Assembly (NCBI RefSeq): GCF_005405925.1
Contig: NZ_BJHV01000001.1
Span: forward strand, 9,300,001 to 9,364,000
Origin: Streptomyces antimycoticus
Lineage (GTDB): Bacteria > Actinomycetota > Actinomycetes > Streptomycetales > Streptomycetaceae
DNA length: 64,000 bases
Reading direction: 5' to 3'
The notes under the pieces: generated by a model
The model's database searches: none
Told to the model about the DNA's origin: nothing
Seen by the model: only the letters and a program-made list of their open reading frames with translations
In this document: positions 4,175-51,999 of the stretch, one piece after another
Layout: every line of letters starts with the position of its first letter
Position numbering within the stretch: position 1 is the stretch's first letter
Translations under genes and position numbers: made by a program

Positions 4175-5179
4175 CTACGCCGACTCGCGAATCACCAACT
4201 CCGTGGGCAACACCAGCGCCGGTTCGATCGTCTCCCCGGCCGTCAGGCGCAGCAGCTGACGGGCCAGCCGGCGGCCGATGCCGCCGATCGGCTGGCGCAC
4301 GGTGGTCAGCGGGGGTTCGGTGTAGCGCGCGGGCTCGATGTCGTCGAAGCCGACCACCGCCACGTCGTCGGGCACCCGTCGGCCGGACTGGCGCAGTGCG
4401 CGCAGCACCCCGATCGCCATCAGGTCGGAGGCCACGAACACCGCGTCCAGCCGCGGCTCCCGGTCCATCAGCTCCCGTATCGCGACCGCCCCGGACTCCT
4501 GGGTGAAGTCACCGAACGCGACGTACGCCTCCAGCCGCGCCGCGGACAGCGCCGTCCGGTAGCCGGAGAGCCGGTCGATCCCGGCCACCATGTCCTGGGG
4601 GCCCGCGACCGTGGCGATACGGGTGCGCCCGGAGCGGACCAGATGCTCCACGGCCAGCGCCGCGCCCGCCGCGTTGTCCACCCCCACGTACGGCGGCGAG
4701 GCCGGGCTCAGTACCCGCTCGTTGCAGACCACGGGGATGCCCATGCGGGCCAGTGCGGCCGGGAGCGGATCGGCGCCGTGCATCGACGCGACCATGACCC
4801 CGTCGACGTGGCGGGCCAGGGCGAAGCGCTCGATACGGTCACGGCTGGCGGGGGAGCGGGCCATCATCAGCACCAGCTGCTTGTCCGCGGACTCCAGCTC
4901 CTGGCTCACCCCGCGCACCACGCCCGGGAAGAACCGGTCGTCGGAGAAGACCCGGCCCGGCTCCTCGGGGAGCACCAGCGCGAAGGAGTCGGTGCGCTGG
5001 GTGACCAGGCTCCGAGCGGCCTGGTTGGGGATGTAGCCCAGCTCCTGGATGGCGTCCAGCACCGCCTCTCGGCTCTCCTCGGCAACCTTGGTGGAGCCGT
5101 TGACGACACGGGAGACCGTGGCGCGTGAGACTCCCGCGCGCCGCGCCACGCTCTCCAGGGTGGGCCGGGGACGGTGCAT
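4175..5179 (-). CDS. LacI family transcriptional regulator
   Basis: A 334-residue LacI/GalR regulator. The helix-turn-helix reads TLESVARRAGVSRATVSRVVNG from residue 8 (quoted in two overlapping parts of the family consensus), followed by the hinge LGYIPNQAARSLV and a periplasmic-binding-type sensor domain ending VVGFDDIEPARYTEPPLTTV. The ATG at 5179 is chosen because a GAGG lies 8-9 bases upstream and translation begins just before the DNA-binding domain; an upstream ATG at 5230 would add an unlikely tail. It converges with paaX, and no sugar gene is adjacent, so its ligand and targets cannot be assigned. Confidence 0.92.
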   Translation of the reverse strand: MHRPRPTLESVARRAGVSRATVSRVVNGSTKVAEESREAVLDAIQELGYIPNQAARSLVTQRTDSFALVLPEEPGRVFSDDRFFPGVVRGVSQELESADKQLVLMMARSPASRDRIERFALARHVDGVMVASMHGADPLPAALARMGIPVVCNERVLSPASPPYVGVDNAAGAALAVEHLVRSGRTRIATVAGPQDMVAGIDRLSGYRTALSAARLEAYVAFGDFTQESGAVAIRELMDREPRLDAVFVASDLMAIGVLRALRQSGRRVPDDVAVVGFDDIEPARYTEPPLTTVRQPIGGIGRRLARQLLRLTAGETIEPALVLPTELVIRESA

Positions 5180-5354
5180 CCGCGCATACCTCGCTGTGTG
5201 CTCACTGATGGTCGGTACAGCATGGATCAAGACCGGTCAGGGCGCGAGAACGCGGGCGCGGCAGATCGACGGAGAACCCCAGGCGGAGCGCAGGGCGCGG
5301 ACCTTACGGATCCACAGCGAGAGGTCGTACTCATCGGTGCAGCCGAGTCCCCGG

Positions 5355-36627: not shown

Positions 36628-38445
36628 TCAGGGATATGACACCACGGTCGACGGCACGGTGGAGGTGCCCGACGTGGGAGAGCCGGTGTCATTGATGACG
36701 CGTTCGTACTGGCCCTGGCCGCCGAGCGAGACGACCAGCAGATTGTGGAACTTCACCCCCGACGCGTTCGGGGCGGCGAAGCCGTGGTGCTGCACGATGC
36801 TCGGGTCGACGTTGTAGTAGCAGTAGCTGCCGAGCCCCCATCCCTCGTGCGTGGTCACCGAGTCGGCCACCTTGTAGGCCGCGTAGCCCTTGATGGAGCC
36901 GTTCTGGATGGCCGCCTGGTTCGGGGCGTCGTACGCCTTCTCGTTCTGGAAGAAGATGGTGCGGCCCCGCTGCCCGTACCACTGCACGTCGTACTTGTTG
37001 AAGTGCTCCACGAACAGCCCCGTGGCGAGGACGTCGTCGCCGTTGACCCGGACTCCGTAGTCGGCGCGGTTGGTCTCCCAACCGACCCCGTCACCGTGGT
37101 CGGCGCGCCAGACCCAGGTGTGGTCGACGATGGTGTGACGGCTGTTGATCACCATGCTGGTGGTGGCCTTGCCGGGGCCTGCGCCGCCGATGCGGATGAA
37201 CACGTCCTGGACGGTGGTGGGGTTGGCGGAGTGGTCGGCCGAGGCTCCCGCCGGGCCGACCTCCAGCAGGGTGGCGGAGTTGACCGGTCCGGCGTCGATG
37301 AGGAAACCGGCCAGCCGCACCCCGTCCACATCGGCGACCTTCACCGCGGTGGCGCCGTTGTCGGGGATGAGCGTGGCGTAGCCGAGCCCCAGGATGACGG
37401 TGTTCGCCCGGTTCACCTGGATCGGCCGGTCGAGGTGGTAGATCCCCGGGGTGAGCAGCAGCTGGAGCCCCTGGGCGAGCGCCTCGTTGAGGGTGGCCGC
37501 GGAGACGCCCGGTTTGGCCACGTAGAACTGCGTCAGCGGCAGCGAGGTGCCTCTGGGGGTGCCGTTGCCCCAGGTGACCCCGCGGGCGTTGGTCCGCTTC
37601 TCGGGCAGGAAGACCCGGTACTCGCTGCCGTTGAGGTACAGGAACGGCTTCTCCCGGGAGACGGGGGTGGTGTCGAGCGTGGTGTAGGGCGGGTTCGGGA
37701 AGCTCTGCCCGGGCGCGCCCTCCACACCGGAGAACACCATGTTCCACACGCCGTTGAGCCAACTGCCGATCGCGCTGTCGCGGGTGTACCACTGCTGCTG
37801 GGAGTACGGTCCGACCTGGCCGTCGATGCGGCTGTCCGCGATGTAACCGCCGCTCGCCCAGCCGTAGCCGTCGGGGGAGAGGTTGAGCCCGCCGCGGACG
37901 TGCATCCGCCGGAAGGGCGCCGCCTGCGCCACCGCCCAGCGGTTGGTGCCGTTGACGGGGACGACCGCGAGGTTCTCCGCCGAACGCCAGAAGTTCTGGG
38001 TGGCATTGCCGTTGAACCACCCGGCGTCCACCGTGATATCGCCGTTGATGGTCGTGTCGTCGGGGGACAGCCCCAGCCCGGCGATGGAGGTGTAGAAGCC
38101 GATCTGGGCGTTGAGCCCGCTGTAGGAGCCGGGCTTGAACAGCAGGGCGTAGCGCCCGGTGCCGAACTGCGCCGACTCCTGCTTCTTGAACACCTCGTCC
38201 AGCTTGGCCTGGATGCCGGGCGTGGACGGGTCGAAGACGATGACGTTCGGGCCGAGGTCGCCGCCACCCGGCAGCGCCCGTGGGCCCTTGCTCCGGCTCG
38301 CGGGGGCGGCGGACGCGGGAGTGGCCAGGCCGGCGAGGGCGGGGGCCGATGCGACGGCGGCCGCGGCGCCGAGCACCGCCCGGCGGCCGACCGGGGAGCG
38401 GCCGGAGGAAGACGGCGTGGAGAACGGCGTGGGGGAAGGCGTCAT
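36628..38445 (-). CDS. Tat-exported beta-helix glycanase-like protein (GH55-like)
   Basis: A 605-residue secreted protein with a twin-arginine leader ([20 protein letters not shown]). The mature part begins [20 protein letters not shown], as in two-barrel parallel beta-helix (pectin-lyase-fold) hydrolases, and continues with repeated turns such as [20 protein letters not shown] and [20 protein letters not shown]. Length and build fit GH55 beta-1,3-glucanases; some relatives are annotated as 'adenylyl cyclase' or 'coagulation factor' type without basis. The GGGAGCGCTCTC operator before it and the neighbouring glucanase genes support beta-glucan degradation. The exact family should be treated as likely, not certain. 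Confidence 0.7.
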
Positions 38446-38487
38446 GGGGGCGTCTCTCCTGGTTCAGTAAATGAACGGGATGGAGGT

Positions 38488-38503
38488 GAGGGAGCGCTCT
38501 CTT
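38488..38503 (-). promoter_or_regulatory. LacI-type operator A
   Basis: GAGGGAGCGCTCTCTT is an imperfect palindrome centred on AGCGCT, 43-58 bases upstream of the beta-helix gene start. It is the weakest of three related sites in the locus and resembles CebR-type operators (TGGGAGCGCTCCCA). Confidence 0.65.
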
Positions 38504-38743
38504 GCCGTCGCATGCTTCATCCATGTGAACGACTCGTCAAGAGTTGTGACCGCAGTCTGTGGGTGTTGTTGGCTTTTGAACATCAACTGGCCTGGAAATT
38601 CCGATAGTTCGGGCGCAGTTGGGGCGGATTCACGGTCGCCCGTGTCCATGGATGTTGTGTTCAAGAGGTAAGCGGAGCCGGTGTCTGATCCTTTCTGCTC
38701 GACGCCTTGACACCTTTGTGTGTCCGCCCGGACACTCCCGTCT

Positions 38744-38760
38744 TGGAGAGCGCTCTCCCA
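38744..38760 (+). promoter_or_regulatory. LacI-type operator B
   Basis: TGGAGAGCGCTCTCCCA holds a perfect 14-base palindrome (38745-38758). It lies about 130 bases before the DUF1996 gene start and is the best of the three related sites. Confidence 0.75.
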
Positions 38761-38886
38761 GTGTTGTCGCGGGCCGGTGACGGCCCGTCATACGGGCGGC
38801 CCGGCCCGCACCCACGGCGCCGCGAGTCCTCGCCGTGTACGGCCGCCTGGCCACCTTCACCCTCTCTCCACGTGGCAGGAGTCTCC

Positions 38887-39978
38887 ATGGCACGGAGATC
38901 GAAGATCGTTTCAGGAACCCTGATCGCAGGCGCGTTACTGCTGACCTCGCTCGGCCTCGGTGGTATCGCGATGAGCGCCGAAGCGCCCCCGGCCGAGCCC
39001 GCGGGCGGCGGTGTCACGGCCGCCCACGCGGGACACGTCATGGCGGCGCCGTCGTCCTCCTCCCCCGAGGACCCGGACGGCGACGGCTACATTCCCGCGA
39101 ACCCGCCGGTCACCGGCGTCACACCGTCCACGAAGGAGCCGCCGCACCGCTACTTCCACGAGTTCCAGGCCAACTGCTCGGTGAGCCACACCAAGCCGGA
39201 CGACCCCATCGTGTACCCGCAGCGGCCGGGCGCGTCCCATGACCACACCTTCATGGGCAACACCACGACCGATGCGGCCAGCACCACGGCCTCCCTCGAC
39301 GCCGGCCGCACCACCTGCAAGGCGCCGGGCGACAAGTCGGGTTACTGGATGCCCACACTGTTCAACGCCGACCGGCCGGTGCTGCCCATCGGCCCGCAGA
39401 CCATCTACTACAAGGCGGGCGTGACCGACTACACCAGTGTGCGGCCCTTCCCCAAGGGGCTGCGTTTCGTGGTGGGCGACCCGATGCAGACCGCCGAGGA
39501 GTTCCGCCACCACCCCGGCTTCGTGGAGGGCTGGGAGTGCGGCGACAGCTTCTTCAACATCGAGTTCCCCAAGGACTGCCCGAGCCGGCCCGAGGTCCAG
39601 CTCAACATCCGTTTCCAGGCGCCCAGTTGCTGGGACGGCAAGTACCTGGACACGCCCGACCACCGCAGCCATATGGCCTACCCCGTGGTGAACCCAGGGA
39701 CGAACAACAACGTGTGTCCGGCCGACCACCCGGTGGCGCTGCCGATGGTCGAGTTCAAGATGGCCTTCCCGGTCAACGGTGACCTCTCGCACGCGCGGCT
39801 GGCCAGCGGCCCGAGCTGGTCGTTCCATTACGACTTCTTCAACGCCTGGGACGCGCCCACGCTCAAGGCGCTCGTCGATCACTGCGTCGTCGGGGCGCTG
39901 CAGTGCGACGCCCGCGGCTACGACCAGACCCACCCCGAGGCCGGAGCGGCCCTGGACGAGAACTACGAGCTGCCGTGA
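38887..39978 (+). CDS. secreted DUF1996 domain protein
   Basis: A 363-residue secreted protein; AGGAG lies 5 bases before the ATG. A signal peptide (IVSGTLIAGALLLTSLGLGG) is followed by a Pro/Ser-rich linker and a DUF1996 domain with PGASHDHTFMGNTTTDAAST, GYWMPTLFNADRPVLP, WECGDSFFNIEFPKDCPSRP and HMAYPVVNPGTNNNVCPADH. DUF1996 is common in fungi and actinomycetes beside carbohydrate-active genes; its biochemical role is not known to me. Position between two probable glucanases and a shared operator suggest a helper in beta-glucan attack. Confidence 0.85.
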   Translation: MARRSKIVSGTLIAGALLLTSLGLGGIAMSAEAPPAEPAGGGVTAAHAGHVMAAPSSSSPEDPDGDGYIPANPPVTGVTPSTKEPPHRYFHEFQANCSVSHTKPDDPIVYPQRPGASHDHTFMGNTTTDAASTTASLDAGRTTCKAPGDKSGYWMPTLFNADRPVLPIGPQTIYYKAGVTDYTSVRPFPKGLRFVVGDPMQTAEEFRHHPGFVEGWECGDSFFNIEFPKDCPSRPEVQLNIRFQAPSCWDGKYLDTPDHRSHMAYPVVNPGTNNNVCPADHPVALPMVEFKMAFPVNGDLSHARLASGPSWSFHYDFFNAWDAPTLKALVDHCVVGALQCDARGYDQTHPEAGAALDENYELP

Positions 39979-39982
39979 ACCA

Positions 39983-40023
39983 CGGCCCGGCCGCGGGGTG
40001 CGGACACCACCGCGGCCGGGCCG
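39983..40023. terminator. hairpin after DUF1996 gene
   Basis: A perfect 14-base stem (CGGCCCGGCCGCGG with its complement) and 13-base loop begin four bases after the DUF1996 stop codon. It may terminate or reduce read-through into the glucanase gene that follows 84 bases later. Confidence 0.7.
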
Positions 40024-40062
40024 CCGCACTCCACTTCCCCCGACACACCGAAAGACACCACC

Positions 40063-41811
40063 ATGACGCGGACCCGTACCGCCCCACGCCGTATCGCGGC
40101 GCCCCTCACCGCCGGTCTGCTGGCCGCCGGCGCCCTCGCGCTGCCCGGCCGGCCGGCCCACGCCGCCGGAAGCGTCGTCAAGGTCACCGGCTCCCAGGGC
40201 GACTGGCGGCTGACCGTGGACGGCCAGCCGTATCAGATCAAGGGCCTGACCTGGGGCCCCGCCATCGCGGACGCCGACCGCTATCTGCCCGATCTGCGGT
40301 CGATGGGTGTCAACACCCTCCGCACCTGGGGCACCGACGCCACCAGCAAACCCCTCTTCGCCTCCGCGGCCGCCAACGGCATCAAGGTGATCGCAGGTTT
40401 CTGGCTGCAGCCCGGTGGCGGCCCGGGCAGCGGCGGCTGTGTGAACTACCGGACGGACACCGCCTACAAGGACCAGATGCTCGCCGAGTTCCCCAAGTGG
40501 GTCGCCACGTACAAGGACCACCCGGGCGTGCTGATGTGGAACGTCGGCAACGAGTCGGTGCTCGGCCTGCAGAACTGCTACAGCGGCGAAGAGCTGGAGC
40601 GGCAGCGCGACGCCTACACCACGTTCGTCAACGACATCGCCAAGAAGATCCATGGTGTCGACCCCGACCACCCGGTCACCTCCACCGACGCATGGACCGG
40701 CGCCTGGCCGTACTACCAGAGAAACGCCCCCGACCTGGACCTGTACGCCGTCAACTCCTACAACGCCGTCTGCGACATCAAGGCCACTTGGGAACAGGGC
40801 GGATACACCAAGCCGTACATCGTCACCGAGACCGGCCCCGCGGGGGAGTGGGAGGTCCCCGACGACGCCAACGGCGTGCCGGAGGAGCCCACCGACCAGG
40901 CCAAGGCCGCGGGCTACACCAAGGCGTGGAACTGCGTCACCGGCCACCGGGGCGTCGCGCTCGGCGCCACGATGTTCCACTACGGCACCGAGGACGACTT
41001 CGGCGGCGTCTGGTTCAACCTGCTGCCCGCCGGCCAGAAGCGGCTGTCGTACTACGCGGTGAAGAAGGCGTACGGCGCGGACACCTCGCATGACAACACA
41101 CCGCCGGTCATCTCCTCACTGGCCGTGGACGGCGACCCCGCCAAGGTGGAGGCGGGCCGCGATCTGACGCTCACGGTCAAGGCCACCGACCCCGACGGCG
41201 ACGCGCTCGCCTACCAGGTGCTGGGCAGCAGCATGTACCTCGACAAGGACAAGAAACTCACCCCGCTGCCCGCCACCGACCTCGGCGGCGGCCGGCTGAA
41301 GGTCACCGCGCCGGACCGCCCCGGCGTGTGGAAGGTCTACGTCAAGGCCACCGACGGCAAGGGCAACGTGGGCATCGAGACCCGTTCCATACGGGTCGTC
41401 CCGCCCGCCGTGAACGGCACCAATGTGGCCCTCGGCAAGCCGGCCACCGCCTCCTCGTACCAGACAGGTGGCGGCGACTGCCCCTGCACCCCCGCCAACG
41501 CCGTGGACGGCAAGGCGGACACCCGCTGGGCGGCCGACTGGAGCGATCCGCAGTGGCTCCAGGTGGACCTCGGCACAGCCACCCCCCTCACCCATGTCCA
41601 GCTTGTCTGGGAGGCCGCCTACGCCAAGGCGTACACCCTCCAGACCTCAGACGACGGCCAGAGCTGGCGCACCATCCGTGAGGTGACCGACGGCAACGGC
41701 GGTGTCGACGACTTCGACGTCTCCGGCACCGGCCGCTACGTCCGTGTCCACGGCACGGCCCGGGGCACCGGATACGGCTACTCGCTCTACGAGTTCGGCG
41801 TCTACCACTGA
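40063..41811 (+). CDS. secreted GH5/GH2-like beta-glucanase with discoidin (CBM32-like) domain
   Basis: A 582-residue secreted protein: signal peptide, a (beta/alpha)8-barrel hydrolase or glucanosyltransferase domain, an Ig-like linker domain (~345-440) and a C-terminal F5/8-type discoidin domain (NVALGKPATASSYQTGG, NAVDGKADTRWAADWSDPQW). Probable acid/base Glu164 is in MWNVGNES and nucleophile Glu256 in YIVTETGPAGEW. The barrel resembles those assigned to GH2-type TIM barrels and to GH72-like beta-1,3-glucanosyltransferases. It follows the DUF1996 gene and precedes the lacI-type regulator, so a role in beta-glucan breakdown is likely. Confidence 0.82.
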   Translation: MTRTRTAPRRIAAPLTAGLLAAGALALPGRPAHAAGSVVKVTGSQGDWRLTVDGQPYQIKGLTWGPAIADADRYLPDLRSMGVNTLRTWGTDATSKPLFASAAANGIKVIAGFWLQPGGGPGSGGCVNYRTDTAYKDQMLAEFPKWVATYKDHPGVLMWNVGNESVLGLQNCYSGEELERQRDAYTTFVNDIAKKIHGVDPDHPVTSTDAWTGAWPYYQRNAPDLDLYAVNSYNAVCDIKATWEQGGYTKPYIVTETGPAGEWEVPDDANGVPEEPTDQAKAAGYTKAWNCVTGHRGVALGATMFHYGTEDDFGGVWFNLLPAGQKRLSYYAVKKAYGADTSHDNTPPVISSLAVDGDPAKVEAGRDLTLTVKATDPDGDALAYQVLGSSMYLDKDKKLTPLPATDLGGGRLKVTAPDRPGVWKVYVKATDGKGNVGIETRSIRVVPPAVNGTNVALGKPATASSYQTGGGDCPCTPANAVDGKADTRWAADWSDPQWLQVDLGTATPLTHVQLVWEAAYAKAYTLQTSDDGQSWRTIREVTDGNGGVDDFDVSGTGRYVRVHGTARGTGYGYSLYEFGVYH

Positions 41812-41847
41812 TCCATGGCCGGTGGTGATGTGTCCCCGGCGGTGGCG

Positions 41848-41860
41848 GGAGAGCGCTCTA
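41848..41860 (+). promoter_or_regulatory. LacI-type operator C
   Basis: GGAGAGCGCTCTA contains the palindrome AGAGCGCTCT (41850-41859), 36-47 bases before the lacI-type start codon. It is probably the autoregulatory site. Confidence 0.7.
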
Positions 41861-41894
41861 TGCCCTCGGGGCGCGCTGCCACTAGGGTGCGGGT

Positions 41895-42947
41895 ATGAAC
41901 CGACACGCCCCGACCTTGGAGGATGTCGCCCGGGAGGCCGGTGTCTCCCGGGCGACGGTGTCCCGGGTCGTCAATGGCGTCCGCAACGTGGATCCGGCCA
42001 TCCAGGACCAGGTCCGCGTCGCGATCGAGCGCACCGGCTACGCGCCCAACCGGGCGGCCAGATCGCTGGTGACCCGGCGCACCGGCACCGTGGCGCTCGT
42101 CGTCTCCGGGGCCGGGGACGGGACCGGGGACACCTCGGAGGAGGAGCAGAACGCCTTCGCCGCACGGGTGTTCGCCGATCCGTTCTTCGGCCGGGTGGTC
42201 GGCGGGGTGGTGGGATTCCTGCGGCCGCGCTCGACGCACCCGGTGCTGATGTTCGCCGAGTCCCCCGAGGCCAGGCAGGAGGTACTGCGGTATCTGCGGC
42301 AGGGAAACGCGGACGGGGCCCTCGTGGTGTCCACCCACCCCGACGATCCGCTGCCCGCGCTGCTGGCCGAGGCCGGACTGCCCGCCGTGCTCTTCGCCCG
42401 GCCCGTGCGGCCGGTCGCGCTGAGCCATGTCGACCTGGCGCACTGGGACGGTGGCCGCCTCGCGGCCGAGTGTCTGCTGGCCCGGGGATGCCGGAAGGTG
42501 GCCACCGTGTCGGGGCCGTGGGCGGTGGCGGCGAGCCAGGAGCGGCTCGCCGGGTTCCGCGACACCATGGCCCGCGGTGGCCATCCGTATGTGCCGGTGG
42601 CCGAGGGGGGCTTCACGCTGGACAGCGGGGTGGCGGCGATGACCGAGCTGCTGGCCGAACACCCCGATGTGGAGGGGGTGTTCGCGGCCAACGACCTGAT
42701 GGCCCAGGGGGTCTGCCAGGTGCTGAGGGAGCGCGGCCGGCGGGTGCCCGACGATGTCGCGGTCGTCGGCTTCGACGATTCCAGCGTGGCCGCCACCTGT
42801 CGGCCGCCGCTGACCTCGGTGCGCCAGCCGGTGGAGGACATGGCGGCGGCGATGGCCCGGCTGCTCGACGAGCACGTCCGCGGCCTGCGCACCGAGCCGG
42901 CCTCGGTCCTCTTCGAACCGGAGCTGGTGGTACGGGAGTCGGCGTAG
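41895..42947 (+). CDS. LacI family repressor of the beta-glucan locus
   Basis: A 350-residue LacI/GalR regulator: TLEDVAREAGVSRATVSRVV at residues 6-25, hinge GYAPNRAARSLVTRRTG, sensor domain ending PDDVAVVGFDDSSVAATCRP. An unusual insert rich in Gly and Glu (GAGDGTGDTSEEEQNAFAAR) lies at the hinge-sensor border. Three AGCGCT-centred palindromes in this locus, one before its own gene, suggest it controls the beta-helix, DUF1996 and glucanase genes. The ligand is probably a beta-gluco-oligosaccharide such as cellobiose or laminaribiose, by analogy with CebR. Confidence 0.92.
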   Translation: MNRHAPTLEDVAREAGVSRATVSRVVNGVRNVDPAIQDQVRVAIERTGYAPNRAARSLVTRRTGTVALVVSGAGDGTGDTSEEEQNAFAARVFADPFFGRVVGGVVGFLRPRSTHPVLMFAESPEARQEVLRYLRQGNADGALVVSTHPDDPLPALLAEAGLPAVLFARPVRPVALSHVDLAHWDGGRLAAECLLARGCRKVATVSGPWAVAASQERLAGFRDTMARGGHPYVPVAEGGFTLDSGVAAMTELLAEHPDVEGVFAANDLMAQGVCQVLRERGRRVPDDVAVVGFDDSSVAATCRPPLTSVRQPVEDMAAAMARLLDEHVRGLRTEPASVLFEPELVVRESA

Positions 42948-43526
42948 CCTCTGCGCCGGACGTGTGCGTGGCCCCTGCGCCCGGGCGGTGCGTTTGTCCC
43001 CGGCGCGGGACGTGCGTGTGGTCCCTGCGCGGGACGCATACGTAGGCCTCGCGCTCGGACGTGCCCTGGCCCTGCGCGGGACGTGCGTGTAGCCCTCGCG
43101 CCGGGACGTGCGTGTAGCCCTCGCGCCGGGACGTGCGCGTAGCTCTGCGCGGGATGTGCGTGTACCCCTGCGCCAGCTGTGCCCGTAGCCCTGCGCACGG
43201 GCCACACGTAGCCCTGGCGTTCGGACATGCGCGTAGCTCTGCGCGGGATGTGCGTGTACCCCTGCGCCAGCTGTGCCCGTAGCCCTGCGCACGGGCCACA
43301 CGTAGCCCTGGCGTTCGGACGTGCGCGTAGCTCTGCGCGGGATGTGCGTGTACCCCTGCGCCAGCCGCGCTCGTAGCCCTGCGCACGGGCCACACCCAGC
43401 CCTCGCGCCCGGACGTGCCCCTAGCCCTACGCGGGACGTGTCCGTAGCCTCCGCGTCGGACGTGCCCGTAGCCCTGCCGCAGCCGCGCGCGTACCCCCCC
43501 GCCCGCGCCAGCCGCGCCCGTACCCC
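42948..43526. repeat. minisatellite with 94-base higher-order repeat
   Basis: Between two converging regulator genes lies about 580 bases of degenerate 19-23-base units of the type GCGCGGGACGTGCGTGTAGC. In the middle a 94-base higher-order unit recurs at least twice almost perfectly: AGCTCTGCGCGGGATGTGCG starts at 43141, 43235 and 43329. The period is not a multiple of three, and all frames across it are simple repeats, so no gene is supported. The structure implies recent unequal crossing-over or replication slippage. Confidence 0.9.
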
Positions 43527-44833
43527 CTACGCCAGCCGGGTGTCCAGCGTGGCGCGCCACGCCGGGGACGGCTCCGGTGCGGGAGTGGGCGGCAGGCGGC
43601 GCCCACCGCGGGCGAAGAACGCGGCGAGCGGCAGGATCGCGGCGCCCACCGTCACCGCGTCCGGCCCCAGCGCGCCCAGGTCGATGCCGACCCGCCCGGA
43701 GGGGTACGGCAGCGCGTAGGACACCGCGTGGCCGCGCACCGAGTCCAGGAAACGCGCGCCGAGCTGGAGACCGGCCCAGCCGCCGACGAGGATGCGCTCC
43801 GGCTGGAAGAGATTGATCAGGTCGGACAGTCCGGCGCCCAGATACTCCGCGGTCTCGGCGAGGACGGTGGCCGCCACCGGGTCCGGGGCGCCGCCGTCCG
43901 CGGGGTACGCGGCGGCCAGCATCGCCGTCAGGGCGGTCTCCTCGTCGGTGTCGGGCGGCGGCTGCCCGCCCGCTTCCTGCCAGCGTTCCAGCAGCGCCTC
44001 CGCGCCCGCGTACGCCTCCAGGCAGCCCAGCGCCCCGCAGCGGCACCGGCGGCCGCGCACCCGCACGGTGAGATGGCCCCACTCCACCGCCCGGCCGTGC
44101 TCGACGTCGTCGGTGACGACGCACGCGCCGACGCCCGATCCGAAGAGCACGACCACCGCGTTGCGCGCACCGCGCCCGGCGCCGAACCACATCTCGGCCT
44201 GCCCGAGCGTTTTGGCGCCGTTCTCGATGAAGTACGGGACCTCGTCGGGGAGATGACCCGATCCGCGCAGCATCCGCTCCAGTGGCACCGCCTCCCAGCC
44301 GATCGGCTGGCCGTGCACCACCGCACCGTCCTCCCGGAGTGTTCGACGATGCCGGGGACGCCGATGCCGACGCCGAGGATCCGCGCGGGGTCGCGCCCGG
44401 CCGCCTCCAGGACCTCCGCGATGCCGTCGCGGATATGGCCCGCGATCAGTTCGCTGTCGTAGCGCACCCGGCGCCCGGCCCCGCGGGTGGGCAACGGCCG
44501 GTCGGCGCGTGCCCGTTCGGCCAGCGAGAGATCGAACAGCTCGACACGGACCCGGGTCTCGCCGACATCCACCCCGATCATGTGGCCGCTGTGCGGCGTG
44601 ATGCGCAGGAGGGTGCGGGGTCGGCCGCCGTCGGAGTCGATGCTTCCGGCCTCCTCCACCAGCTCCTCGGTGAGCAGTTCGGCGACCACATTGCTGATGG
44701 AACCTGAACTCAGCCCGGTCGCGGGGCCCAGCGAGAAGCGGCTCATCGGCCCGTCGAAATACAACCGACGCAGCACGGCGGCGCGGTTCTCCCGCCGCAG
44801 GTCACGAACGTTACGCCCGTTGTGCGCTGCCAC
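43527..44833 (-). pseudogene. ROK family repressor, broken by one frameshift
   Basis: A ROK-type sugar repressor of about 435 residues. From GTG 44833 (GAGGAGG 5 bases upstream) it reads the DNA-binding part RRENRAAVLRRLYFDGPMSR then GLSSGSISNVVAELL and the kinase-like start MIGVDVGETRVRVELFDL. After GVPGIVEHSG the frame fails; the other frame goes on with AVVHGQPIGWEAVPLERMLR, VVLFGSGVGACVV and the zinc motif CRCGALGCLEAYAG to a normal end. One base is missing in the CCC (plus strand) at 44333-44335. It diverges from an ABC sugar importer, its probable target. A real mutation would leave the importer unregulated; an assembly error is equally possible. Confidence 0.82.
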
Positions 44834-44885
44834 CTGGCCTCCTCAAGTCCCGGCTCCGCGCCGCAAGATACCTCCGCCGGATCTC

Positions 44886-44914
44886 TTGACGCGACCTTCT
44901 CTTGAGGTTTAACT
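44886..44914 (+). promoter_or_regulatory. promoter of the ABC importer operon
   Basis: TTGACG (44886-44891) and TTAACT (44909-44914) are separated by 17 bases, a good housekeeping-type promoter about 100 bases before the binding-protein start. The AT-rich stretch just after it (CACGTCCTAAATTAAG) may be a ROK repressor site. Confidence 0.55.
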
Positions 44915-45016
44915 CACGTCCTAAATTAAGCCGTGAGCGGCTTCGGGAGTTGAACGCGGTTGGCGTGCCCGGGCCCTTCTTGGCATTCACCACTCCCGGA
45001 AGGGACACCTGGAGCC

Positions 45017-46336
45017 ATGCGCAGGATCCGAGCCGCGGCCATAGGCGCCGTCACCTTGTCACTCGCCCTTGCCGCCTCGGCGTGCGGAGGTGGTTCCTCG
45101 ACGGACGGCGGCGGCTCCAACGACTCGCCGAAGACGCTCACGTACTGGGCCTCCAACCAGGGCGCCAGCATCACGGTGGACAAGAAGGTCCTGAAGCCCG
45201 AACTCGACAAGTTCGAGAAGCAGACGGGAATCAGAGTGAAGCTGGAGGTCATTCCCTGGTCCGAGCTGCTGAACCGGATCCTCACCGCGACCACCTCCGG
45301 CCAGGGCCCGGACGTCCTGAACATCGGCAACACCTGGAGCGCCTCGCTGCAGGCGTCCGGGGCGCTGCTGCCGTGGGACACCAAGAACTTCGGCAGCATC
45401 GGCGGCAAGGACCGCTTCGTGGACTCCGCCCTCGGCTCGACCGGAGCGCAGGGCGAGGATCCGGCCGCGGTACCGCTGTACTCGATGGCGTACGCGCTCT
45501 ACTACAACAAGAAGATGTTCGCCGACGCGGGCATCTCCAAGCCGCCCGCCACCTGGGACGAGCTGGTCGCCGACGGCAAGAAGCTCTCCAAGGACGGCAA
45601 GTGGGGCCTCGGCGCCGAGGGCGCGAACCTCTCGGAGAACATCCACCAGGTCTTCGTCTTCGCCAAGCAGCACGGCGCGGACTTCTTCACCGCCGACGGC
45701 AAGCCCGACTTCACCTCCGAGGGTGCGGTCACCGCCATCAAGCAGTACGTCGACCTGATGGCCAAGGACAAGATCATCGCCCCGGGCAACGCCGAGTACG
45801 CGCAGAACCAGTCCCTCAGCGACTTCGCCAAGGGGAAGACGGCGATGGTCCTGTGGCAGACCGCCTCCGCCACCCTCGCCTCGCTGGGCATGAAGGACGA
45901 CGAATGGGGCGTGGCCCCGGCGCCCGTCCGCTCCGGCACCCCCGGCTCCGGCACCTCCGTCAACTCGATGGTCGCCGGTATCAACCTGGCCGTCTTCAAG
46001 AACACCGACAACCACGACGGCGCCCTGAAGTTCGTGAAGTTCATGACCAGCGACGCCGAGCAGAAGATCCTCAACAAGGCGTACGGCTCCATCCCGCCGG
46101 TCAAGGCCGCCCAGTCCGACCCCGCCTTCAACACCAAGGCGACGGCCGCCCTGCGGGAGACCCTCGCCAAGAGCGCCGCGGCGCTGCCGCAGGTGGCCGA
46201 CGAGTCGCAGTTCGAGACCTCCGTCGGCACGGCCGTCAAGGAGCTGCTCGCGGACGCCGCCGGCGGACGCCCGGTGACCACCGAGTCGGTGAAGGCCAAG
46301 CTGGAGAAGGCCCAGCAGCAGATGCCGGCGAAGTGA
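45017..46336 (+). CDS. ABC sugar-binding lipoprotein (CUT1)
   Basis: A 439-residue extracellular solute-binding lipoprotein. The signal peptide ends LALAASACGGG, with Cys23 lipidated. The mature protein has the two-lobe binding fold, with TLTYWASNQGASITVDKKVL, GPDVLNIGNTWSASLQASGA, VPLYSMAYALYYNKKMFADA and FAKGKTAMVLWQTASATLAS. ATG 45017 directly precedes the lipoprotein leader. Two permease genes and a GH1 glucosidase follow without gaps, so it probably captures beta-linked gluco-oligosaccharides. No ATPase gene is included; CUT1 systems in Streptomyces share MsiK encoded elsewhere. Confidence 0.92.
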   Translation: MRRIRAAAIGAVTLSLALAASACGGGSSTDGGGSNDSPKTLTYWASNQGASITVDKKVLKPELDKFEKQTGIRVKLEVIPWSELLNRILTATTSGQGPDVLNIGNTWSASLQASGALLPWDTKNFGSIGGKDRFVDSALGSTGAQGEDPAAVPLYSMAYALYYNKKMFADAGISKPPATWDELVADGKKLSKDGKWGLGAEGANLSENIHQVFVFAKQHGADFFTADGKPDFTSEGAVTAIKQYVDLMAKDKIIAPGNAEYAQNQSLSDFAKGKTAMVLWQTASATLASLGMKDDEWGVAPAPVRSGTPGSGTSVNSMVAGINLAVFKNTDNHDGALKFVKFMTSDAEQKILNKAYGSIPPVKAAQSDPAFNTKATAALRETLAKSAAALPQVADESQFETSVGTAVKELLADAAGGRPVTTESVKAKLEKAQQQMPAK

Positions 46337-46349
46337 GTGCGGACACCTC

Positions 46350-47348
46350 ATGACCACCACGACCGCCACCGCTGAGGCAGACCGGCGGACGGTGTCGGGG
46401 AGCACCCCCGGTGCGGCGCGAGGCCCGCGCCGCACCGGGCGGATCCGCCGCATCGGACTGCCGTACCTGCTGCTCCTGCCCGCCCTCGTACTCGAGCTCC
46501 TGGTCCATCTGGTGCCGATGGTGATCGGCATCCTGATGAGCTTCAAGGCGCTCACCCGGTTCTCCATCCGGGAATGGGGCGCAGCGCCCTGGTCCGGATT
46601 GGACAACTACAAGGTCTCGGTGGACATCAACGCCCCGGCCGGGGAGGCGCTGCTCCACTCGTTCTGGGTCACCTGCGGCTTCACCGTGCTGTCGGTCGGG
46701 CTGTGCTGGCTGCTGGGCACCGCCGCCGCCATCTTCCTGCAGGACACCTTCCGCGGACGGGGGCTGCTGCGCACCCTGTTCCTGGTCCCGTACGCGCTGC
46801 CCGTCTACACGGCCGTCATCACCTGGGCCTTCATGTTCCAGCACGACAACGGGCTGGTGAACCATGTCCTCCACGACCAGCTGGGCCTCACCGACAAGCC
46901 CTCGTTCTGGCTGATCGGCGACAACAGCTTCATCGCGCTGCTGACCGTGTCGGTGTGGAAGGGCTGGCCATTCGCGTTCCTCGTCGTCATGGCCGGTCTG
47001 CAGAACATCCCCAAGGAGCTCTACGAGGCGGCCGCCCTCGACGGTGCCGGGATGTGGCAGCAGATCCGCCGCATCACCCTGCCCTCGCTGCGCCCGGTCA
47101 ACCAGGTGCTGGTGCTGGTGCTGTTCCTGTGGACGTTCAATGACTTCAACACCCCGTACGTGCTGTTCGGCAAGGCAGCGCCGGAGGCCGCGGACCTCAT
47201 CTCGATCCACGTCTACCAGACGACATTCGCCACCTGGAACTTCGGCACCGGCTCCGCCATGTCCGTTCTGCTGCTGCTCTTCCTGCTCGTGGTGACGGGC
47301 CTGTACCTCCTGCTGACCTCCCGACGAAGGAAGACGGCCGATGTCTAG
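46350..47348 (+). CDS. ABC sugar permease, MalF type
   Basis: A 332-residue permease with six membrane helices after a 35-residue cytoplasmic tail. The ATPase-docking EAA loop is LYEAAALDGAGMWQQIRRIT, near residue 225. It begins 13 bases after the binding protein stop and ends with an 8-base overlap with the next permease. Confidence 0.93.
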   Translation: MTTTTATAEADRRTVSGSTPGAARGPRRTGRIRRIGLPYLLLLPALVLELLVHLVPMVIGILMSFKALTRFSIREWGAAPWSGLDNYKVSVDINAPAGEALLHSFWVTCGFTVLSVGLCWLLGTAAAIFLQDTFRGRGLLRTLFLVPYALPVYTAVITWAFMFQHDNGLVNHVLHDQLGLTDKPSFWLIGDNSFIALLTVSVWKGWPFAFLVVMAGLQNIPKELYEAAALDGAGMWQQIRRITLPSLRPVNQVLVLVLFLWTFNDFNTPYVLFGKAAPEAADLISIHVYQTTFATWNFGTGSAMSVLLLLFLLVVTGLYLLLTSRRRKTADV

Positions 47349-48237
47349 CACCGCTCCGGCGCCGCCCCGCTCACCGATGGCCCCTCCCCGCTCACCGATG
47401 GCCGCCCCCCGGTCCTTCCTCTGGGCCCGCCGGATCTTCCTCACCCTGCTCACCGGCTTCGTCCTGCTGCCGGTGTACGTCATGGTCTCCAGCTCCCTGA
47501 AGCCACTGCAGGACGTCTCCGGGACGTTCCGCTGGCTGCCGAGCGGGCTGACCATCCGCCCCTACATCGACATCTGGTCGACGGTCCCGCTCGCCGACTA
47601 CTTCGTGAACTCGGTCATCGTGGCGGGCGCGGCGACCGTCTGCTCGGTGGTGATCGCCGTCTTCGCCGCGTACGCGGTCAGCCGGTACCGCTTCCGGGGC
47701 AAGCGGGTGTTCACGGTCACCGTGCTGTCCACCCAGATGTTCCCCGGGATCCTCTTCCTGCTGCCGTTGTTCCTCATCTACGTCAACATCGGCAACGCCA
47801 CCGGCATCGCACTCTTCGGCTCCCGCGGCGGTCTCATCCTCACCTATCTCACCTTCTCGCTGCCGTTCTCGATCTGGATGCTCATCGGGTACTTCGACTC
47901 GGTGCCGCGCGATCTGGACGAGGCGGCGCTGGTGGACGGCTGCGGACCGCTCGGCGCGCTGTTCCGGGTCGTCGTCCCGGCCGCGATCCCCGGCATCGTC
48001 GCCGTCGCCGTCTACGCGTTCATGACCGCCTGGGGCGAGGTGCTCTTCGCGTCCGTGATGACCAACGACACCACCCGCACCCTCGCCGTCGGCCTCCAGG
48101 GGTACGCCACCCAGACCGAGGTGTACTGGAACCAGGTCATGGCCGCCTCGCTCGTCGTCAGTGTTCCCGTGGTCGCGGGCTTCCTGCTCCTCCAGCGCTA
48201 TCTCGTCGCCGGACTCACCGCCGGAGCCGTGAAGTGA
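47341..48237 (+). CDS. ABC sugar permease, MalG type
   Basis: A 298-residue permease with six helices; the EAA loop reads [20 protein letters not shown]. Its N-terminus carries a short repeat ([17 protein letters not shown]), a product of DNA slippage. It overlaps the preceding gene by 8 bases and its stop lies at the head of the GH1 gene. Confidence 0.93.
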
Positions 48238-48266
48238 CCGGCCTTCCCACCTCTGAAAGGACGTAC

Positions 48267-49630
48267 GTGTCCGAACTCCTGGACCTCACAGCCTTCCCGC
48301 ACGACTTCCTGTGGGGCACGGCCACCTCGGCCTACCAGATCGAGGGAGCCGCTGCCGAGGACGGACGGTCGCCCTCGATCTGGGACACCTTCTCGCACAC
48401 GCCAGGCAAGATCGCGGGCGACGACCACGGCGATGTGGCCTGCGACCACTACCACCGCTGGCGCGCGGACATCGGGCTGATGAAGCGGCTGGGCACCAAC
48501 GCCTACCGGCTCTCCATCGCCTGGCCACGGGTGATGCCGGGCGGCGACGGGCCGGTCAACGCCAAGGGCCTGGCCTTCTACGACGAGCTGATCGACGGTC
48601 TGCTGGAGGCGGGCATCACCCCGTCCGTCACCCTGTACCACTGGGACCTGCCGCAGGTGCTCCAGGACCGGGGCGGCTGGCCCGTGCGCGACACCGCGGA
48701 ACACTTCGCCGCGTACGCCTCCGTGGTGGCCGACCGCCTCGGCGACCGCGTGCACCACTGGACCACCCTCAACGAGCCGCTCTGCTCGGCCTGGATCGGC
48801 CACCTCGAGGGTGTGATGGCGCCCGGGCTCACCGATCTGACCGCGGCCGTCCGCGCCTCGTACCATCTGCTGCTCGGCCACGGCCTCGCCGCCCAGGCGA
48901 TCCGTGCCGCCGCACCGGGCGCCGAACTCGGCATCGTCAACAACCTCAACACCGTCGAGGCCGCCAGCGACAGGCCCGAGGACCAAGCGGCCGCGCGCCG
49001 CATGGACGGCCACACCAACCGCTGGTGGCTGGACCCGGTCCACGGCCGCGGCTTCCCCGCGGACATGCGCGAGGTGTACGGCGTCGAACTGCCGGAGCGC
49101 CCCGGCGACCTGGAGACCATCGCCGCACCCCTGGACTGGCTGGGCCTGAACTACTACTTCCCGGCCACCGTCACCGACGACCCCACCGGCCCGGCCCCCA
49201 CGCCCGCGCCGTCCGCCGCCCGGACGTACCCCGCACGGGGATGGACTGGGAGATCGACGCCACCGGCATCGAAACCCTCCTGCTGCGCCTGACCGGCGAA
49301 TACGGCGCCCGCAAGCTGTATGTCACCGAGAACGGCTGCGCGTACCCCGACGTCGTACGCCCGGACGGCACCATCGACGACCCCGAGCGCCAGGACTACC
49401 TCGTCCAGCACCTCGCGGCCTGCGCCTCGGCGGCCCGCAAGGGCGCCCCGCTGGCCGGCTACTTCGCATGGTCGCTGCTCGACAACTTCGAGTGGGCCTA
49501 CGGATACGACAAGCGCTTCGGCCTCGTCCACGTCGACTACGGCACGCAGACCCGCACCATCAAGGGGTCCGGCCACCGCTACGCGGAGATCATCCGCGAC
49601 CACCGGGGCCGGGCCCGCCGCGCGGCATAG
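48267..49630 (+). pseudogene. GH1 beta-glucosidase, broken by one frameshift
   Basis: A family GH1 beta-glucosidase of about 455 residues, cytoplasmic, last gene of the importer operon. The first frame holds [34 protein letters not shown] and the acid/base Glu in WTTLNEPL. At the C run 49195-49199 one base appears to be missing: the frame turns to nonsense ([13 protein letters not shown]) while another continues as [19 protein letters not shown] and contains the nucleophile Glu in [12 protein letters not shown] and the end [23 protein letters not shown] 48267 has AAAGGA 6 bases upstream. It should hydrolyse imported beta-gluco-oligosaccharides if intact. Confidence 0.85.
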
Positions 49631-49669
49631 GGGGCGTCCAACGGGCCTCGACACCCGCGGCGGGCTGCT

Positions 49670-49872
49670 CCCCTCCCCGCCCCTTCCCGCAACACCGATA
49701 TGCGGCTCCGCCGCACGACAGCGCTCCGCCCCTGGTAACGCAGTCCGGCTCCTTTGGCGTTTGAGGAGTGGGTCCGGGGCGGTGCCTTTGGTAACGCAGT
49801 CCAGCCCCTCCGGCGTTTGAGGAGCGGGGTCCAGGGGCGGAGCCCCTGGTATCGGGAAGGGGCGGGGAGGGG
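49670..49872. repeat. composite streptomycete intergenic repeat, copy 1
   Basis: The ends are inverted: CCCCTCCCCGCCCCTTCCCG at 49670-49689 and its complement at 49853-49872. Inside, two tandem copies of a unit with GGCGTTTGAGGAG and GTCCGGGGCGG/GTCCAGGGGCGG lie about 62 bases apart. Parts recur at 52472-52596. Such GC-rich elements are scattered in Streptomyces intergenic DNA. Confidence 0.8.
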
Positions 49873-49951
49873 AAAGACCCGCCGGACGCCCCAGGGCGCG
49901 CACAGACGGCACCACCCGCACCACAGCACGCAGGCACGACGGAAAGCACAT

Positions 49952-50035
49952 CGGCACCACGGCACCACGGCACCACGGCATATCGGCACACGGCACCACG
50001 GCACACGGCACACGACACGAAGGCACCTCATCACC
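49952..50035. repeat. degenerate GGCACCAC/GGCACAC tandem repeat
   Basis: Short purine-pyrimidine units such as GGCACCAC and GGCACAC repeat about ten times before the GH16 gene. No gene or clear promoter is seen within it. Confidence 0.8.
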
Positions 50036-50088
50036 ACCGCACTTCGGCACCACACGTGTACCCCCACGACCTCCTCGAGGAGAGCCGC

Positions 50089-51999
50089 ATGCCATCCCGT
50101 ACCCAGCGCCAACGCCAACGCCACCGCACCCTGCTGAGCGCCCTCGCCACCTTGGCCACCGTGGCGCTGCTGTCCACGGGCCCGGCCCTCGCCACCCCCG
50201 CGTCCCACTCCACCGAGGCCGCCGCCGAGGCGACGTGGGACACCGACCGCGCGGCGGCCGCGTACGCCGCCAATCACAACGCCGTCACCGCATCCGGTAG
50301 CGAGAACGACGGCACCGCGCCGGGCCTGGCCTTCGACGGCAACGGGTCGACCCGTTGGGCCAGCCCGTTCGGCAACGACGCATGGATACGTGTCGACCTC
50401 GGCGCCACCATCCGGATCGACCGGGTCGTCCTGGACTGGGAGGCCGCCTACGGCAAGAGATACGTCCTGGAGGTGTCGAAGAACGGCACGGACTGGACCC
50501 CCTTCTACACCGAGAACGCCGGCACCGGAGGATCCCTCACCGCCCACACCTATCCGCAGGACGTCACCGGCCGCTACGTACGAATGCGCGGCATCGAGCG
50601 TGGCACGCCCTACGGCTATTCGCTGTACTCGTTCAAGGTCTACGGCGGCGAGCCCGCCCCCGCGTCGACGACCCGCACCAACCTCGCCCTGAACCACCCA
50701 GCCTACTCCAACTACTACCAGCACGCGGGCAATTCACCCGCGTTCCTCACCGACGGCGGCTGGCCCGCCAACCTCAAGGACGACCAGACCCGCTGGTCCA
50801 GCGACTGGAACGCCGACCGCTGGGTCTCGGTGGACCTCGGCGCCACCTCCACGATCGACACCGTCGACCTCTACTGGGAGGCGGCCTACGCCGTCGACTA
50901 CCAGGTGCAGGTGTCCGACGACAACCGCACCTGGCGCACGGTGTATCAGCCCTCCGCCGCCGAGGTGGCCGCCCGTCGCGCGGACGTCACATCGCCCGCC
51001 GACGCGGTGGGCCGCCATGACACCGTGAGGCTGTCGCAGCCCGCCACCGGCCGCTATGTGCGGATGCTCGGCAAGGAGCGCCGCTCCTTCTACAACCCGG
51101 CCCCGGCCACGGCCCAATTCGGATACTCGCTCTACGAGTTCCAGGTCTGGGGCACCGGCGGGAGCGCCTCCGCCGCCTACCCCGCCCTCCCCGGTGAACA
51201 GTCCGGTGCGTATCGGACGACGTTCCTCGACGACTTCACCGGTGCCACCCTCGACCGCTCCAAGTGGCGTGTGGTGCGGACCGGCCAGGAGATGGGGTCG
51301 GTCAACGGCGAGTCGCAGGCGTATGTCGACTCCTCCGATACCATCCGCACCGAGAACGGCAATCTCGTCCTCAGGGCGAAGTACTGCAAGGGCTGCGCCC
51401 AGGCGGGCGGCGGCACCTACGACTTCACCTCCGGGCGCATCGACACCCACACCAAAATGGACTTCACCTACGGGCGGGTCAGCGCCCGGATGAAGCTGCC
51501 GGTCGGCGACGGGTTCTGGCCCGCGTTCTGGCTGCTGGGCAGCGATGTGGACGATCCGTCGGTGTCCTGGCCGTCCTCCGGCGAGACCGACATCATGGAG
51601 AACATCGGCTACGCGGACTGGACCAGCACCGCCCTGCACGGCCCCGGCTATTCGGCGGACGGCAACATCGGCGCCCGCCAGATCTACGCGGGCGGCGGTC
51701 GCGCCGACCAGTGGCACACCTATGCGGTGGAGTGGACACCCACCGTGATGCGCTTCTTCGTCGACGACCGGGTGGTCCAGGAGACCACCCGCAACAAGCT
51801 CGAATCCACCAGAGGCCAGTGGGTCTTCGGCCACAACCAGTACGTCATCCTCAACCTCGCCCTGGGCGGGGCGTATCCGGCCGGGTGGAACAAGGTCACC
51901 ACCCCGTACTGGGGCCTGCCGCAGTCGAGTGTCGACCGGATAGCGGCGGGGGGAGTGCAGGCGGAGGTGGACTGGGTGCGCGTCGAACAGAAGGGCTGA
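50089..51999 (+). CDS. secreted GH16 beta-1,3-glucanase with two discoidin domains
   Basis: A 636-residue secreted glucanase. A signal peptide precedes two F5/8-type carbohydrate-binding domains (LAFDGNGSTRWASPFGNDAW at about 85, and DDQTRWSSDWNADRWVSVDL at about 235), then a C-terminal GH16 jelly-roll with the catalytic ExDxxE motif GETDIMENIG (Glu499, Asp501, Glu504), GDGFWPAFWLLGSDV and QYVILNLALGGAYPAG. It should cut laminarin-type beta-1,3- or mixed-linkage glucan outside the cell. ATG 50089 has AGGAG 7 bases upstream. It lies after the GH1/importer operon but is separated by repeats, so it has its own promoter. Confidence 0.92.
   Translation: MPSRTQRQRQRHRTLLSALATLATVALLSTGPALATPASHSTEAAAEATWDTDRAAAAYAANHNAVTASGSENDGTAPGLAFDGNGSTRWASPFGNDAWIRVDLGATIRIDRVVLDWEAAYGKRYVLEVSKNGTDWTPFYTENAGTGGSLTAHTYPQDVTGRYVRMRGIERGTPYGYSLYSFKVYGGEPAPASTTRTNLALNHPAYSNYYQHAGNSPAFLTDGGWPANLKDDQTRWSSDWNADRWVSVDLGATSTIDTVDLYWEAAYAVDYQVQVSDDNRTWRTVYQPSAAEVAARRADVTSPADAVGRHDTVRLSQPATGRYVRMLGKERRSFYNPAPATAQFGYSLYEFQVWGTGGSASAAYPALPGEQSGAYRTTFLDDFTGATLDRSKWRVVRTGQEMGSVNGESQAYVDSSDTIRTENGNLVLRAKYCKGCAQAGGGTYDFTSGRIDTHTKMDFTYGRVSARMKLPVGDGFWPAFWLLGSDVDDPSVSWPSSGETDIMENIGYADWTSTALHGPGYSADGNIGARQIYAGGGRADQWHTYAVEWTPTVMRFFVDDRVVQETTRNKLESTRGQWVFGHNQYVILNLALGGAYPAGWNKVTTPYWGLPQSSVDRIAAGGVQAEVDWVRVEQKG

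Follow-up and report, generated by a model that had tools for sequence, protein, structure and literature searches.

The window, a stretch of 64,000 nucleotides from Streptomyces antimycoticus, contains a cluster of glycoside hydrolase, regulator and importer genes (Table 1). An earlier note read this cluster as a beta-glucan utilisation locus; the gene families bear this out and narrow it to beta-1,3-glucan (GH55, GH158, GH64, GH16). Its gene calls hold for GH55, DUF1996, GH16, the CUT1 importer, GH1, LacI and ROK, and fail for the glucanase termed GH5/GH2-like, whose closest family is GH158. The GH55 protein has no match in a Pfam search and is placed in its family by the similarity of its catalytic domain to PDB 4pew, which we take to be the GH55 laminarinase of Streptomyces sp. 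SirexAA-E, presumably an exo-acting enzyme. Activity on beta-1,3-glucan (laminarin) is predicted from this family match. The GH158-like protein is a TIM-barrel glucanase resembling PDB 9oro across residues 29-443, and the clan GH-A acid and nucleophile motifs WNxGNE and VTExGP align between the two (WNVGNES with WALGNES, VTETGPAGEWEV with VTEFGPRGHWEV). The glutamates of these motifs act as catalytic acid and nucleophile. Laminarinases are among the closest solved chains to the GH16 protein. The LacI protein combines an HTH (PF00356, 54.9 bits) with a periplasmic-binding-like domain (PF13377, 129.9 bits) and scores 273 bits against 5ysz. Two reading frames are broken in the window: the HTH part and the ROK domain of the ROK regulator are both present, in two frames (a single frame of 435-444 aa in 6/6 close relatives), and the N part (48234-49292) and C part (ORF 48311-49630) of GH1 each match TIGR03356 and PF00232. 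The genes for GH55, DUF1996, the GH158-like glucanase with its CBM32, and LacI stay together as a block, with synteny kept across 80 related DUF1996 loci.

Table 1. Features of the locus with their predicted identities (window coordinates)
Feature	Position	Strand	Basis
GH55 exo-beta-1,3-glucanase, secreted	36628..38445	-	1042 bits to PDB 4pew, residues 55-605
Operator O1 (GH55 side), GAGGGAGCGCTCTCTT	38488..38503	.	Hybrid in 40/40 second sites
-35 box TTGACG of GH55, predicted	38535..38540	-	TTGAC 41-42 bp upstream of operator core
-35 box TTGACA of DUF1996 operon, predicted	38707..38712	+	TTGAC at -40 to -44
Operator O2 (DUF1996), TGGAGAGCGCTCTCCC	38744..38759	.	Symmetric GAGAGC/GCTCTC
DUF1996 protein, 363 aa, probably secreted	38887..39978	+	PF09362, 156 bits
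GH158-like beta-1,3-glucanase, C-terminal CBM32	40063..41811	+	9oro, 116 bits; PF00754
Operator O3 (lacI), GGGAGAGCGCTCTATG	41847..41862	.	One half 1 base off (GCTCTA)
LacI-family regulator, CebR paralogue (46% identical)	41895..42947	+	PF00356, PF13377; 5ysz
ROK-family regulator, frame broken near 44320-44340	43527..44833	-	ORFs 43527-44321, 43928-44833
Conserved element before importer, candidate ROK operator	44908..44937	+	Alignment of 31 sequences
CUT1 sugar-binding protein	45017..46336	+	PF01547; closest solved 5ysb Lin1841
CUT1 permease 1	46350..47348	+	PF00528
CUT1 permease 2	47341..48237	+	PF00528
GH1 beta-glucosidase, frame broken near 49200-49290	48234..49630	+	TIGR03356, PF00232
GH16 beta-1,3-glucanase, two CBM32	50056..51999	+	PF00722, PF00754

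The AGCGCT-centred palindromes that the earlier note placed before GH55, DUF1996 and lacI are present (from 38488, 38744 and 41847). The palindrome count by itself is not remarkable: the genome-wide search that the note had proposed finds the exact GAGAGCGCTCTC three times in 11.17 Mb, where composition predicts 1.2, and a scan of the window with a 14-mer at up to 3 mismatches gives 9 places against 9.9 expected. The operators are judged real because of their position and their conservation in relatives. Of the three exact 12-mers of the home genome, two stand before DUF1996 genes (the one in the window and another) and the third before a GH64 beta-1,3-glucanase. No place in that genome matches the 16-mer consensus in full, and O2 alone comes within 1 mismatch of it. 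Among the related DUF1996 loci, 65/80 carry an operator; by gene class it precedes 66/79 DUF1996 and 56/67 LacI genes, the latter a putative autoregulation site. The operators of GH55, DUF1996 and lacI each retain a distinct asymmetry, a feature newly seen here. O1 is a hybrid, with its GGGAGC half toward GH55 and its GAGAGC half on the far side, and this form recurs in 40/40 second sites among the 44 loci with a divergent GH55 (window included). DUF1996 sites have GAGAGC on both sides (66/67), and the GAGAGC/TAGAGC form of O3 accounts for 49/55 of the AGCGCT words in the 120 bp that precede LacI genes.

In the GH55 promoters TTGAC precedes the operator core by 41-42 bp (40/40; shuffled mean 1.6); in the DUF1996 promoters it lies upstream of the operator in 67/67 (shuffled mean 2.3), at a distance of 40-44 bp in 65 of them. 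The GH158 gene has no operator of its own in the window, as in all but 1/77 relatives, and is presumably transcribed by read-through from DUF1996. No LacI-type site was found before the GH16 gene in the window. The importer likewise lacks the palindrome, as the earlier note had observed (0/31 importer genes), and is instead preceded by its own conserved element, in which 29/31 sequences (the window and 30 loci) differ at no more than 5 of 30 positions. These counts support the proposal of two regulators, one for outside attack and one for uptake; control of the importer by ROK is suggested by gene position, and ROK binding is predicted. The split is not general: two genomes, both from a single other family, have an importer with a LacI-type operator.

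We regard the locus as the heart of a CebR-like LacI regulon by which beta-1,3-glucan is attacked outside the cell, with DUF1996 as a regular secreted member (probability about 0.83). The LacI repressor would occupy its own promoter as well as operators overlapping the places where transcription of the divergent GH55 and DUF1996-GH158 units is expected to begin, until freed by a beta-1,3-gluco-oligosaccharide, possibly laminaribiose-like. In Streptomyces the products would then be taken up and cleaved by the adjoining CUT1-GH1 operon, itself under the different conserved element and, judging by position, the ROK regulator. The glucan-attack set is apparently controlled jointly by one repressor. 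In 13 genomes selected because they contain the locus, 19/20 sites fit the regulon and one lies inside another LacI locus. Among 40 unselected genus genomes, 37/39 sites stand before glucan-attack genes or lacI; the remaining two lie before a 6-phosphogluconate dehydrogenase gene and at a contig end. Outside the genus, 21/34 sites lie close to a member of the set (in 5 cases only a distant LacI or a GH1), and sites also occur at a GH9 cellulase and other importers. These off-set sites count against the regulon reading, as do the 23/40 unselected genomes in which the exact site was not found and the recognition helix GVSRATVSRVVNG, which the local LacI has in common with a second one encoded at 4175-5230 of the window. 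For strain SirexAA-E, a GH55 laminarinase is reported from glucose culture, and a GH64 is reported to increase when xylan or xylose is the carbon source (PMC12772271); neither result points to tight control by a beta-1,3-glucan signal in that strain.

The CebR/CelR cellulose regulon of actinobacteria (PMC4898821, PMC3377646) likewise employs a LacI-family protein and AGCGCT-centred palindromes before secreted glycosidases; there the operator is TGGGAGCGCTCCCA and the targets are cellulases, whereas the window has GGAGAGCGCTCTCC, beta-1,3-glucan genes, a different paralogue and a neighbouring importer without the operator. One addition to the regulon reading, compatible with it and possible but on balance doubtful, is dual control: O1 would be composite, with GH55 repressed by both LacI and CebR, and DUF1996 and lacI by LacI alone. 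In all 40 hybrids it is the half facing GH55 that is of CebR type, and the DUF1996 and lacI operators each have a different form; the hybrid is also present in Actinomadura (L026 = L169). However, the half box might just tune affinity, and LacI proteins bind DNA as symmetric dimers, which is at odds with a composite O1. It is improbable that the operators belong outright to CebR or another LacI paralogue and the locus is an outlying piece of the cellulose regulon. Such a reading would draw on the GGGAGC half, which equals half of a CebR box in 40/40 loci, and on the identical recognition helix of the second LacI; yet the place of CebR, with a binding protein, two permeases, GH1 and two CebR boxes, is already occupied by a CebR-like gene at 4183041 of the home genome, whose product is 46% identical to the local LacI, so that the local LacI was rejected as CebR itself. 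The CebR operator was rejected for the local sites as well, since O2 has GAGAGC halves and O1 a single GGGAGC half. The local lacI also has a conserved upstream site and remains linked to the locus. The core palindrome of the window has been noted before, in a passing mention of 2012 concerning LacI-type loci of genera other than Streptomyces: GGAGAGCGCTCTCC in Streptosporangium roseum, where it precedes a LacI gene accompanied by genes for CBM32 proteins and GH3, and TGAGAGCGCTCTCA in Catenulispora, with LacI, GH5 and GH16, the GH16 proteins being named as possible endo-1,3-beta-glucanases (PMC3377646). The main text of that report has 0 occurrences of DUF1996, GH55, GH64 or laminarin.

A beta-1,3-glucan regulon across Streptomyces would stand alongside that of CebR for cellulose. 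A single base in each core half site distinguishes their operators, and the hybrid operator is a possible meeting point. Beta-1,3-glucan is a main glucan of fungal walls and also occurs in algal walls; the gene set is therefore relevant to the attack of soil streptomycetes on fungi.

The regular membership of a secreted DUF1996 protein in this set points to its role. The suggestion that it is an accessory factor is supported by co-location, shared operator, co-occurrence and CBM32 fusions; its most likely role is to bind beta-1,3-glucan or act on it. The a/b-type DUF1996 adjoins beta-1,3-glucanases in at least three arrangements and co-occurs with the operator across genus genomes (16/2/2/21, Fisher p 3.6e-7), with two genomes holding the operator without a/b-type DUF1996 and two the reverse; 5/24 a/b-type copies lack the operator. 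DUF1996-CBM32 fusions occur in actinobacteria, with a CBM32 55% identical to that of the window GH158. Fungal DUF1996 proteins share this link to carbohydrate-binding modules, some having WSC, CBM1 or CBM6 (PMC7679414, PMC4738358, PMC9148135, PMC3689799), and a role in polysaccharide degradation has been suggested (PMC7679414); the window type differs in its association with a single substrate class and a single operator and in its actinobacterial CBM32 fusions. For fungi, a function in the cell wall or in metal stress has been proposed, and a vacuolar location and metal-stress phenotypes are reported (PMC4738358). That DUF1996 is such a protein here, a mere passenger carried along by chance, is very improbable given its glucanase neighbours, CBM32 fusions and operator co-occurrence, even though a third Streptomyces class of DUF1996 has the operator in 0/10 examined. 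For this domain of unknown function, found in fungi and actinobacteria, the locus offers a likely substrate class and a genetic system in which it can readily be tested. The profile match is far above the cut-off of 27 bits, the predicted model is confident (pLDDT 86.7) and its search against PDB structures gave no significant match; residues H118, H120, H262, H314, D316, D105 and eight Cys are invariant in 101 sequences. A more far-reaching proposal, tentative and somewhat against the odds, is that a/b-type DUF1996 constitutes a new secreted beta-1,3-glucan-active family, possibly metal-dependent and with a fold new to the PDB, and that the three operators are selected grades, one being a LacI/CebR composite coupling to the cellulose system. 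The DUF1996 start is likely the ATG at 38887, which matches the start in relatives; the TTG start given by the ORF caller, at 38707, falls within the -35 box.

The DNA examined here (G000:C1:9300001-9364000) lies within an 11.17 Mb Streptomyces genome. Its glucan locus is best explained, at a probability of roughly 0.83, as the centre of a CebR-like LacI regulon for extracellular attack on beta-1,3-glucan. The GH55 protein matches, over residues 55-605, a solved secreted protein, 4pew, which we take to be the SirexAA-E laminarinase. The product labeled GH5/GH2-like in the earlier note is best placed in GH158, a family of endo-beta-1,3-glucanases.

Features of the locus and related sites (window positions unless stated otherwise)
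Feature	Position	Strand	Observation
Glucan locus	36628-51999		GH55 (-), DUF1996, GH158-like+CBM32, lacI (+), ROK (-), CUT1 binding protein, two permeases, GH1, GH16+two CBM32
Tandem array between lacI and ROK	42942-43477		repeat units near 23, 71 and 94 bases, the 94-base unit scoring 530 in TRF
ROK regulator	43527-44833	-	frame broken near 44320-44340; single frame in 6/6 close relatives
GH1 beta-glucosidase	48234-49630	+	frame interrupted near 49200-49290; each part matches the family
Second LacI	4175-5230	-	48% identity to locus LacI; identical recognition helix GVSRATVSRVVNG
Nearest CebR-like gene	4183041 (home genome)		adjoined by binding protein, two permeases, GH1 and two CebR boxes
GH16-like/DUF1996b pair	L256:7362 (related locus)		headed by TTGAGAGCGCTCTCAA; flank variant outside the 14-mer pattern
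6-phosphogluconate dehydrogenase	L234:14914 (related locus)		preceded by exact 14-mer operator; adjoins a GH1-importer cluster; one genome

The block is widely conserved. Among DUF1996 loci from named genomes (best 80 of 343), GH158 comes after DUF1996 in 63 and, in 14, before it on that strand; a divergent GH55 is present in 45, and 63 have a LacI with 58% or more identity no more than 8 kb away; all three are arranged as in the window in 35, contig ends lowering some of these counts. A gap of about 3 kb separates GH158 from lacI in many loci, and that of the related locus L011 contains a GH3 beta-glucosidase.

An AGCGCT-centred palindrome (operator consensus GGGAGAGCGCTCTCCC) occurs within 700 bp upstream of DUF1996 in 65 of these best 80 loci, the level across the loci being 0.08 per 700 bp with true sites counted in. 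In scans of the 350 bp before each gene that tolerated at most 4 mismatches, the operator precedes DUF1996 (66/79), LacI (56/67) and GH55 (41/51, partly reflecting the upstream region in common with DUF1996), as well as GH3 (6/47), GH158 (1/77) and GH64 (1/4), against a background of 222/5000 random windows. By the same thresholds it is absent before the importer binding protein (0/31), the permeases (0/31 and 0/30), GH1 (0/18) and ROK (0/21). TTGAC lies upstream of the operator in all 67 DUF1996 promoters analyzed, the window's and those of 66 loci, 40-44 bp before the core in 65, and at 41-42 bp in 40/40 GH55 promoters having a second site. Given a 17-18 bp spacer, these distances would place the operator over the expected transcription start, the usual repressor position.

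Classed by half sites, with GAGAGC demanded in one half and the other left free for the DUF1996 and GH55 classes, the operator is GAGAGC/GAGAGC before DUF1996 (66/67), GAGAGC/GGGAGC before GH55 (40/40, the GGGAGC half always facing GH55) and GAGAGC/TAGAGC before lacI (49/55). Divergent GH55 is found in 44 loci including the window, 4 of these lacking the second site. The CebR box, TGGGAGCGCTCCCA, has the half site GGGAGC (PMC4898821). The nearest CebR-like protein of the home genome shares 46% identity with the window LacI, which marks the two, judged by sequence, as paralogues. Within 1 kb of the second LacI, the sole 14-mer word with at most 3 mismatches falls inside its own gene.

In the home genome, GAGAGCGCTCTC occurs at three places, before the window DUF1996, a second DUF1996 (97% identity to one named S. 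violaceusniger, P0121) and a GH64 beta-1,3-glucanase. RGAGAGCGCTCTCY turns up 20 times in 13 genomes picked because they contain the locus, and by reading 19 of these sites precede genes of the set (GH55, DUF1996, GH158, GH3, GH64, CBM32 glycosidase, lacI); the remaining one sits in the locus of a different LacI. Among 40 unselected genomes of the genus, 17 carry it at 39 places, 37 of them within 700 bp of homology to this set, including two assigned through CBM32 only, one a GH64 protein and the other a GH3 protein. Of the two sites outside the set, one falls at a contig end and the other before a gene read as 6-phosphogluconate dehydrogenase. The reversed pattern occurs in 0/13 and 1/41 genomes. 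Across 118 genomes of the class (home genome and 7 further Streptomyces counted in), 34 places in 12 genomes lie beyond the genus, 21 of them by script near genes of the set, 5 of these only via distant LacI (30-45%) or GH1; the reversed pattern occurs in 4/118. The other 13 include one before a GH81 beta-1,3-glucanase, one before a GH9 cellulase and some before other importers. The code is therefore not exclusive at class distance.

The behavior of SirexAA-E may weigh against a glucan-attack regulon: a GH55 laminarinase is reported from its glucose culture, and xylan or xylose increased a GH64 there (PMC12772271). Taking this result into account slightly lowers our confidence in the LacI regulon. 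A 2012 study had already described the core palindrome in S. roseum and Catenulispora, next to genes for LacI, CBM32, GH3, GH5 and GH16 (PMC3377646). In the open-licence literature, we found no report linking DUF1996, beta-1,3-glucanase and operator in Streptomyces, no DUF1996 paper with Streptomyces in its title and nothing joining PF09362 with Streptomyces; papers on DUF1996 with glucanases are fungal by title.

DUF1996 copies in 41 genomes split by profile score into 24 of at least 158 bits (a/b types) and the rest at or below 112.1 (c type). Operator and a/b DUF1996 occur together in 16 genomes, operator only in 2, a/b only in 2 and neither in 21 (Fisher p 3.6e-7, relatedness ignored). By reading, the operator stands before 19/24 a/b copies or heads their gene run; three of the five without it belong to GH16 gene runs, and in two of those three a different LacI gene is in view. 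It precedes 0/10 c-type copies examined. The related loci L247, L249 and L252 are GH16-DUF1996b runs without a GAGAGC operator; L247 and L249 also show another LacI paralogue (46-47%), and the runs perhaps represent a parallel regulon with another code. Many b-type proteins among the matches listed (Streptosporangium, Saccharothrix, Kitasatospora, others) are fused to CBM32; in one from S. roseum this module is 55% identical to the CBM32 of the window GH158. Because H118, H120, H262, H314, D316, D105 and eight Cys are kept in 101 sequences, DUF1996 would fit a secreted protein rich in disulphides that may have a metal or catalytic site. Its model is confident (280/363 residues at pLDDT of at least 90, pTM 0.82) and has no significant match among 350,542 PDB chains (Foldseek), which falls short of proof for a new fold.

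The importer promoter, devoid of the LacI-type operator, bears its own element, TTTAACTCACGTCCTAAATTAAGCCATGAG, present with at most 5 mismatches in 29/31 sequences (window and 30 loci) and absent from L079 and the Actinomadura locus L026. Since its gene adjoins the importer, ROK is the likely reader of this element; the break in the ROK frame is either a real loss or an assembly error. Separate regulators for attack and uptake, as the earlier note proposed, agree with the operator-free Streptomyces importers but not with L283 and L288 (two genomes of one other family), whose importers carry a LacI-type operator and where the stretch shows no match to ROK. GGAGAGCGCTCTCC was noted before an S. 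roseum transporter (PMC3377646). From these sites, the split between attack and import control looks like a Streptomyces arrangement.
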